Source of the DNA: Hyphomonadaceae bacterium
Lineage (GTDB): Bacteria; Pseudomonadota; Alphaproteobacteria; Caulobacterales; Hyphomonadaceae
NCBI GenBank assembly: GCA_030697555.1
Contig: JAUYPV010000009.1
Span: forward strand, 1 to 64,000
Direction of reading: 5' to 3'
DNA length: 64,000 nucleotides
In this document: positions 46,206-61,634 of the stretch, in pieces
Numbering within the stretch: the first letter of the stretch is position 1
Layout: each line of letters opens with the position of its first letter
Notes under the pieces: model-generated
What the model was told of the DNA's origin: nothing
Seen by the model: only the letters and a program-made list of their open reading frames with translations
Database searches by the model: none
Translations under genes and position numbers: made by a program

Positions 46206-46577
46206 TTACTTCGGACGCTTCACGCCGTAGAGCGAGCGGCGCTGCTTGCGGTCTTTGACGCCTTGAGTGTCGAGAACGCCGCGGAGGATGTGGTAGCGAA
46301 CGCCGGGCAAGTCTTTCACGCGGCCGCCGCGGATCAGCACGACCGAGTGCTCCTGCAGATTGTGACCTTCGCCGGGGATGTAGCAGACCGCTTCGTGCTG
46401 CGTGGTGAGACGCACCTTGGCGACTTTGCGAAGCGCCGAGTTCGGCTTCTTCGGCGTCGTCGTATAGACGCGGGTGCAGACGCCGCGGCGCTGCGGGCAC
46501 GATTTGAGGGCGGGAACCTTGTTCCGCTTCGGCTTGTCTTGCCGCGGTTTGCGGATGAGCTGCTGAATCGTCGGCAT
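46206..46577 (-). CDS. rpsL: 30S ribosomal protein S12
   Basis: [57 protein letters not shown]. Confidence 0.99.
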
Positions 46578-46737
46578 TAGTCCTCGCGTCTCTGGCGACC
46601 GGTCAAAAAACACATGCCGCGACAAGGCTCACGCCTGCCCCGGCCGAACTCTATAGGAGGCTTTCGCTCTCTTAAGGTCACACCACCCAACCGCGTCTGG
46701 AACGTATTCCACGGCCGGTCCGGCGATGTGAAGCGGG

Positions 46738-46817: not shown

Positions 46818-47686
46818 TTATCGGGCGGCGATGAACCGTGAAACCACAGCCGCGAACGCCTCCGGCTCGTCCACCGTCACGAGGTGGCTGGCCTCGGGGA
46901 AGACGATGAGTTCCGCCTTGCCTGCCGGCAGGGCCTCCGCCACCTCCCTGCCCCATACCGCCGGTGTCACCGGGTCGTGCTCGCCGAGGATAACCAGGAC
47001 GGGGCATTCGACCCGGGACAGGCGGTTCCGATGGTCAAAACGCCAGGCTTCGCCTGAAGGCGCGAAGAATCGCTGGGTCGCGACCGGATTCATGGCCGCG
47101 CGCGCCCCGGATGCCGCCAACGAGGACAGGTCGCCTTTCCGGGAATAGAGCGGCAGGCAATGGCGGAAGAATGCAGCGTAGTCGTCCGACGTCGGGTTCC
47201 CGTACAGGGCTCGGGCGGCCTGGCCGGCCTCGGGCCCGCCCAGGCGTTCGTAACCCGCGACCAGCTCGTCCTGGTTCATGCGCAAACAGGCGTTCAGGAG
47301 GACGGCGCCGCCGGCATGGCCGGGATGCCGGGATGCCGGGCCAGATAGGCCTGGACCATCATCGACCCGCCCGACGAGCCGAGGACGATGGGTTTCTGGA
47401 TGCCCAGGACATCGCAGAAGGCCGCGATGTCATCGCCCCACTGGTTGAGCGTCCAGCCTGCCGGGTCACCATGATCACTGCGGCCGCCGCCGCGCGGGTC
47501 GAGATAGACAAGCTGCGCCGCGTCGGCGAAGCGGTCGAAGAAAGGACGCAGGGTCTGGTGGTCGCCGCCTGGCCCGCCGGGAATGCAGACCAGGGTCGGC
47601 TTTTCCTTGAGGCCATCGCCCGCGATTTCGAGCTTCGGATTGAACACGTCGAAGAACAAACGCACGCCGTTGACGTTCGCGTACAT
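46818..47686 (-). pseudogene. Alpha/beta hydrolase (proline iminopeptidase-like), frameshifted by an 8-bp tandem duplication
   Basis: N-terminal ORF 47294-47686 (IPGGPGGDHQTLRPFFDRF, VLGSSGGSMMVQAYLARHPG) and C-terminal ORF 46818-47285 (VLGEHDPVTP, ASHLVTVDEP) join in frame if one CCCGGCAT unit is removed. Confidence 0.85.
47320..47340. repeat. 8-bp tandem duplication (ccgggatg)x2 + ccggg
   Basis: Read directly: ccgggatg ccgggatg ccggg. Confidence 0.95.
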
Positions 47687-47749: not shown

Positions 47750-47788
47750 AAACGCAGCGACGGCGGACTTTCGCCCGCCGTCGCGTTT
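47750..47788 (-). terminator. Strong hairpin downstream of rpoC
   Basis: aaacg cag cgacggcgg-actttcgc-ccgccgtcg cgttt. Confidence 0.6.
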
Positions 47789-47810: not shown

Positions 47811-51965
<4,155 letters not shown>

Positions 51966-59946: not shown

Positions 59947-60020
59947 GGGAATAGGGAATGGGGAGCTGGGAGTAGTTTTCAAGGTTTAGCGCCCTTCCCT
60001 ACTCCCTATTCCCTATTCCC
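59947..60020. repeat. Imperfect inverted repeat with opposed G-quadruplex-type arms at the secE/secD junction
   Basis: Left arm gggaatagggaatggggagctgggagtag; right arm ctactccctattccctattccc. Confidence 0.85.
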
Positions 60021-60032
60021 GACTGCCTATTC

Positions 60033-61634
60033 TCAGATTGGGATGTATTTCGGCCGCGTCCATTTCAGCCACAGGGCAAAGATGAACCGGGCCACCATGA
60101 CCGAGGTGAACAGGGACGTGGCGATACCCACCGCCAGCGTCAGGGCGAACCCGCGGATGGGTCCGGACCCGAGCTGGAACATGACAAGGCCGGCGATGAA
60201 GTGCGTGGCGTTGGCGTCGATGATGGTCGCCATGGCCTGGTCGAAGCCGACATCGACCGAGGAAACGACCGATCTTCCGGCCTTTTTCTCGTCGCGTATG
60301 CGCTCGTTGATCAGCACGTTGGCGTCGACCGCCATGCCCATGGTGAGCAGGATGCCGGCGATGCCCGGCAACGTCATTGTCGCCCCGAAGCCGGACAGGA
60401 TCCCCATCATGAGAATGAGGTTGAAATAGAGCGCGATGATCGCGAACACGCCGAGCAGGCCGTAGGCGACGATCATGAAGATCGTGATGAGGACGATACC
60501 GACGACCGTTGCTGTCACACCCGCCCGGATCGAGTCGGCGCCGAGGCTGGCATCGACGACGCGGCGTTCGGCCACCTTCAGTTTCGCAGGCAGCGCGCCC
60601 GAGCGCAGGATGACGGCGGTTTGTTCGGCTTCCTGGATAGTGAAGCTGCCGGTGATCTGCCCGCTTCCGCTCATGATCGGACTGTTGATGTTCGGCGCCG
60701 AGACGATGCGGTTGTCGAGCACGATGGCGAAGGGGCGGCCGACGTTCGCGCTGGTGGCGCGGCCGAACTTTGCGGCGCCGCCGGGGTGAAGCTGGAACTG
60801 GATATTCGGGCGGTTGGAGTCGTCAAACCCCTGCTGCGCGCCGGAAAGATCAGACCCGCGGATGATCGCGTCCAGGAAGATCACCTGCGGCGCGCCGCCG
60901 ATGCTGTCGTCCGGCAGCGCGATGCGGCCGTTCCGTTCGACCCCGACTTCGTAGTCGGCAGCGTTCGCTTCGACATCGACGAGGTTGAAGGTCAGGACGC
61001 CCGCCTGGGTCAGCGTGTCGATAAGCGTCACCATCTCGGCCGCGTTGAGGCCTGGAACCTCGACAATGATGCGGCTGTCGCCCTGTTTCTGGATGTTCGG
61101 CTCGACAAGGCCGGTGTTGTCGGCGCGGCGGCGCACCGCCTCGATCGAGCTTGAAAGCGCATCCGTCTGCAGCTTCTGGAAGGCCTGATCGGTGTACTTC
61201 GCTTCAATCGCGCCATCTGCGCGCTGCGTGACTACAAGCGAATTCGGCTGGCCGATGGCGCCCACTGGCGGCGCGCCCAGCTTCTCGATGCGATCGATGG
61301 CGGCTGCGGCGTCGGCGGGATTGCTCACGCGCACAACAAGCGCGCCGCCCTCGACCTTGCGGTCTTCGGCGCGCACGGCGATTCGCGGCTGCTTGCGCAG
61401 CTCCTCGCGAACGCTGGTCGACAGTTCCGACAGCTTGTTGGCGCGCAGTTCCTCGGGGTCCACCTCAAGCAGGATGGACGCCCCGCCCTTGAGGTCGAGA
61501 CCGAGCGTCATCGGCCCCGTCGGAAGCCAGCCGAGATACTTCTCGGACACGATGTTGGGCAGGCATAGGATAGTGCCGATCGTGAGGGTCACTATGACCA
61601 GCACGACCTTCCAGGCTGGGAACTTCAGCAGCAT
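60033..61634 (-). CDS. secD: Protein translocase subunit SecD
   Basis: MTLGLDLKGGASILLEVD; RRVVDASLGADSIRAGV; GMAVDANVLINERIRDE. Confidence 0.97.
   Translation of the reverse strand: MLLKFPAWKVVLVIVTLTIGTILCLPNIVSEKYLGWLPTGPMTLGLDLKGGASILLEVDPEELRANKLSELSTSVREELRKQPRIAVRAEDRKVEGGALVVRVSNPADAAAAIDRIEKLGAPPVGAIGQPNSLVVTQRADGAIEAKYTDQAFQKLQTDALSSSIEAVRRRADNTGLVEPNIQKQGDSRIIVEVPGLNAAEMVTLIDTLTQAGVLTFNLVDVEANAADYEVGVERNGRIALPDDSIGGAPQVIFLDAIIRGSDLSGAQQGFDDSNRPNIQFQLHPGGAAKFGRATSANVGRPFAIVLDNRIVSAPNINSPIMSGSGQITGSFTIQEAEQTAVILRSGALPAKLKVAERRVVDASLGADSIRAGVTATVVGIVLITIFMIVAYGLLGVFAIIALYFNLILMMGILSGFGATMTLPGIAGILLTMGMAVDANVLINERIRDEKKAGRSVVSSVDVGFDQAMATIIDANATHFIAGLVMFQLGSGPIRGFALTLAVGIATSLFTSVMVARFIFALWLKWTRPKYIPI

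Follow-up and report, generated by a model that had tools for sequence, protein, structure and literature searches.

The window analysed here, 64 kb of the Hyphomonadaceae bacterium contig JAUYPV010000009.1 (coordinates on the forward strand), holds on its minus strand an alpha/beta hydrolase gene that is probably a recently formed pseudogene, broken by an 8-bp tandem duplication. The case is that of an ordinary frameshift pseudogene, with an assembly fault the less likely explanation. An earlier note on this DNA had left three readings side by side: very recent inactivation, ON/OFF switching by slippage and an assembly error. Our results best support inactivation, by slippage, given the intact syntenic orthologue of a congener, the conservation of the rejoined motif RHPGHA in relatives and the lack of further decay, and they lend no support to switching.

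Two halves of one hydrolase

The split of the gene into two open reading frames (ORFs) in different frames, claimed in the earlier note, is borne out (47294-47686 versus 46818-47285), as is its position between rpoC and rpsL, both of which lie on the minus strand (Table 1). The downstream ORF has 155 amino acids when counted from its TTG, and its frame is open upstream to about 47348. Each half retains its share of the catalytic motifs: the GGPGG loop and the nucleophile elbow GSSGG in the N-terminal half, and the GEHDP acid and SHLVT histidine motifs in the C-terminal half. Specifically, the N-terminal half matches model positions 1-91 of PF00561 (44.6 bits, above the gathering cut-off of 25.8) and the C-terminal half matches the remainder of the fold (PF12697 positions 76-217 and PF00561 positions 89-245); because these ranges are complementary, the halves represent pieces of one domain.

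Table 1 Features of the split hydrolase gene and its flanks.
Feature	Coordinates	Strand	Evidence
rpoC, upstream neighbour, intact	47811..51965	-	ORF list, genus comparison
N-terminal part of alpha/beta hydrolase; ORF of 130 aa with ATG start, last ~10 aa out of frame	47294..47686	-	ORF list, Pfam, motifs
Perfect 22-bp period-8 array, frame-breaking duplication (CCCGGCAT CCCGGCAT CCCGGC)	47319..47340	-	Sequence, repeat scan
C-terminal part, other frame; first usable start TTG 47285	46818..47348	-	ORF list, Pfam, motifs
rpsL, downstream neighbour, intact	46206..46580	-	ORF list, genus comparison

The intact gene would have encoded an alpha/beta hydrolase of about 286 amino acids, similar to proline iminopeptidases or 3-oxoadipate enol-lactonases. 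With the proline iminopeptidase family (TIGR01250, PF00561; PDB 3nwo, 1xrm/1mt3) it shares coverage of the full-length fold by the two-orthologue profile, together with the GGPGG, GxSGG, D and H motifs, and it differs from that family in being split. Scored alone against TIGR01250, the halves reach 41.8 and 39.9 bits, far under the curated cut-off of 167.65, so that these matches do not assign a substrate.

An 8-bp duplication at the break

Read directly, the minus strand at 47341-47313 is GCCCGGCATCCCGGCATCCCGGCCATGCC, in letter-for-letter agreement with the earlier description of two units plus a partial third. The array spans 22 bp, or 2.75 units of CCCGGCAT, and a repeat scan of the 64 kb detected no other stretch in which an 8-bp unit occurs twice or more in tandem. 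Chance alone is expected to yield about 1.7 period-8 runs of 16 bp per window, and none of 60 Markov-simulated windows contained one of 22 bp.

The codons for RHPG, together with the preceding codon, hold two CCCGGC hexamers 8 bp apart, in the region of the conserved R-H-P-G-H-A motif. Slipped-strand mispairing at short direct repeats is a classical process (Levinson and Gutman 1987, as cited in PMC6954433), and replication slippage between the two CCCGGC copies appears to be the likeliest mechanism here. During replication the nascent strand probably fell back by one hexamer copy, from the second to the first; such a slip would copy 8 bp twice and leave exactly CCCGGCAT duplicated in tandem. 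The frame changes just after the nucleophile helix, and translation ends about ten residues later, at 47294. The N-terminal product has thus lost an essential part of the domain and, since it stops short of the triad's acid and histidine, is predicted to be inactive.

Perfect arrays of non-triplet units are few in this genome: with a unit of 7-40 bp and a length of at least two units plus 4 bp as the counting criteria, three were found in 363 kb of its sequence, including the one in the hydrolase gene. A topA-type mutator, a background that produces de novo tandem duplications without repeats (PMC6954433), was considered and seems unlikely, as these three arrays give no sign of a duplication-rich genome. 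Elsewhere in the window, a perfect array of a 7-bp unit (TCCCTAT, 2.6 copies) lies at 60003-60020, in the gap beside an ORF that ends at 60036.

An open frame in relatives

A congeneric uncultured Hyphomonadaceae MAG (G012, CALMWO010000090.1) carries the orthologue in the same rpoC-hydrolase-rpsL synteny, in one open frame and with 71% amino acid identity over 285 residues. The gene was detected in 2 of the 15 genomes of the genus, namely G012 and the genome studied here. When contigs were searched by profile, the alignment of these two sequences gave matches and a single sequence gave none. Among 30 distant homologues (about 37-45% identity), 29 run uninterrupted through the split site, and the 8-bp duplication is absent from all 30 as well as from G012. 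Several of them (L031, L033, L041, L011, L012 and L013) encode R-H-P-G-H-A at the join site, which bears out the earlier claim that removal of one unit restores normal hydrolase sequence. The remaining homologue, from the alpha proteobacterium BAL199 (L027, 3001-3849), is interrupted by an in-frame TAA that immediately precedes the nucleophile elbow and is unrelated to the duplication; it represents either an independently broken copy or a sequencing error.

The earlier note had called for an alignment with orthologues, and had also raised the case of relatives all sharing the split as two genuine genes. The relatives are single-frame instead, and an intact one-frame orthologue is what a frameshift pseudogene calls for. 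Together, the intact syntenic orthologue and the uninterrupted homologues indicate that the split is derived and, as far as sampled, private to this genome.

The dN/dS of the two halves, also proposed earlier, was computed against G012 by the NG86 method. It amounts to 0.158/1.10 for the N-terminal half and 0.267/1.47 for the C-terminal half, a ratio of about 0.14-0.18 that mostly reflects the time before the break and, with dS near saturation, sets only a loose limit on its age. Third positions changed most in both halves. At columns conserved in at least 90% of homologues, the N-terminal half keeps 39 of 49 residues (35 of 49 in G012) and the C-terminal half 18 of 21 (likewise 18 of 21 in G012), and there is no excess loss of conserved residues relative to G012. 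Neither half shows a second stop or frameshift in that comparison. The halves otherwise look intact, as had been claimed. The retained motifs, the low dN/dS and the lack of a second lesion imply either a recent break or a fault of the assembly; a real break would be recent relative to the divergence of the species, as a loose limit.

A variable interval between rpoC and rpsL

The interval between rpoC and rpsL is a variable accessory slot within the genus, occupied by an M28-like peptidase, a hydrolase, other sequence or nothing. This survey covers nine other genomes in which rpsL was found, with five genomes lacking a detected rpsL left out. The intact hydrolase lies in the interval in G012 (L022), a peptidase judged M28-like by eye from its sequence in L017, L018, L021 and L024, and other sequence in L023; the interval is just 370-500 bp long in L019, L020 and L025. 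A perfect GC-rich hairpin follows rpoC in the window at 47758-47783 (cgacggcgg-gcgaaagt-ccgccgtcg, by eye, with no T run) and is possibly an rpoC terminator or attenuator.

The genome studied here contains 34 stretches matching PF00561, and its assembly holds no intact second copy of this particular hydrolase. Given its accessory status in the genus and the abundance of other alpha/beta hydrolases in this genome, the gene was likely lost without harm; its patchy occurrence speaks for dispensability at the level of the genus and not of this strain.

Alternative explanations

Against the pseudogene reading, a local assembly fault would give an identical sequence picture. Under this explanation, the duplication would stem from faulty assembly or consensus calling, or from a minority strain whose variant entered the assembly, and the gene of the organism would be intact. 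We regard this as unlikely, although the assembly is a draft of 176 contigs and the halves seem intact except at the duplication site. Exact tandem duplication of 8 bp over microhomology arises naturally as a mutation and is not typical of short-read or homopolymer errors. Moreover, comparison of roughly 44 kb of the window with genes of the congener revealed no further split gene. That screen used a composition-filtered gene set, because a version with all ORFs gave many false antisense flags, and its leftover flags read as paralogues or as antisense frames spanning two genes. Most lesions of frameshift pseudogenes are indels of 1-2 bp, and the 8-bp duplication differs from them in this respect. 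In other respects, the hydrolase resembles the singleton frameshifted genes of the large GeneTack survey (PMC3711429), with a frame transition in a single genome, one-frame homologues and no conserved site; the homologue-validated singletons of that survey often traced back to sequencing errors or to indels of recent origin, an outcome that leaves room for an error here.

A perfect tandem array inside a reading frame, built of units whose length is no multiple of three, is also what simple-sequence-repeat contingency loci display, and phase variation, in which a rapidly changing copy number toggles the enzyme on and off, has to be weighed for that reason; it is very unlikely here. The array differs from such loci in its few units (2.75), in its absence from the congener and all homologues, which shows that no contingency repeat is being maintained here, be it constant or variable between relatives, and in its atypical function, the product being a hydrolase of cytosolic type and neither a surface nor a modification gene. 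The hydrolase also lacks the marks of the phase-variation class in the GeneTack survey, defined by a cluster of at least five frameshifted genes, characteristic repeats and a prior functional link (PMC3711429). MutS is present and intact in the genome, and a mutS-less mutator background was therefore rejected. That the array is a reversible switch of an accessory hydrolase between rpoC and rpsL, gaining and losing units at appreciable frequency, strikes us as highly improbable. Scarcely credible is a functional two-part or full-length protein made by programmed frameshifting or translational re-initiation. TTG and ATG codons of the second frame do follow the first stop by 8 and 14 nt, but direct reading of the overlap found no slippery heptamer of the X XXY YYZ type, and no Shine-Dalgarno sequence precedes the second start. 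The site folded as DNA shows no unusual structure (z of 0.06 versus shuffles), the break sits within the alpha/beta core and the single-frame homologues run counter to a conserved programmed transition. The window has no Rfam matches.

Implications

For annotation, the two ORFs should become one frameshifted gene. Taken alone, the case is of low importance, a clear example of a dispensable gene broken by a slip-type tandem duplication, for which a relative still displays the ancestral state. It also draws attention to the interval between rpoC and rpsL as a site where accessory genes vary among the species of the genus.
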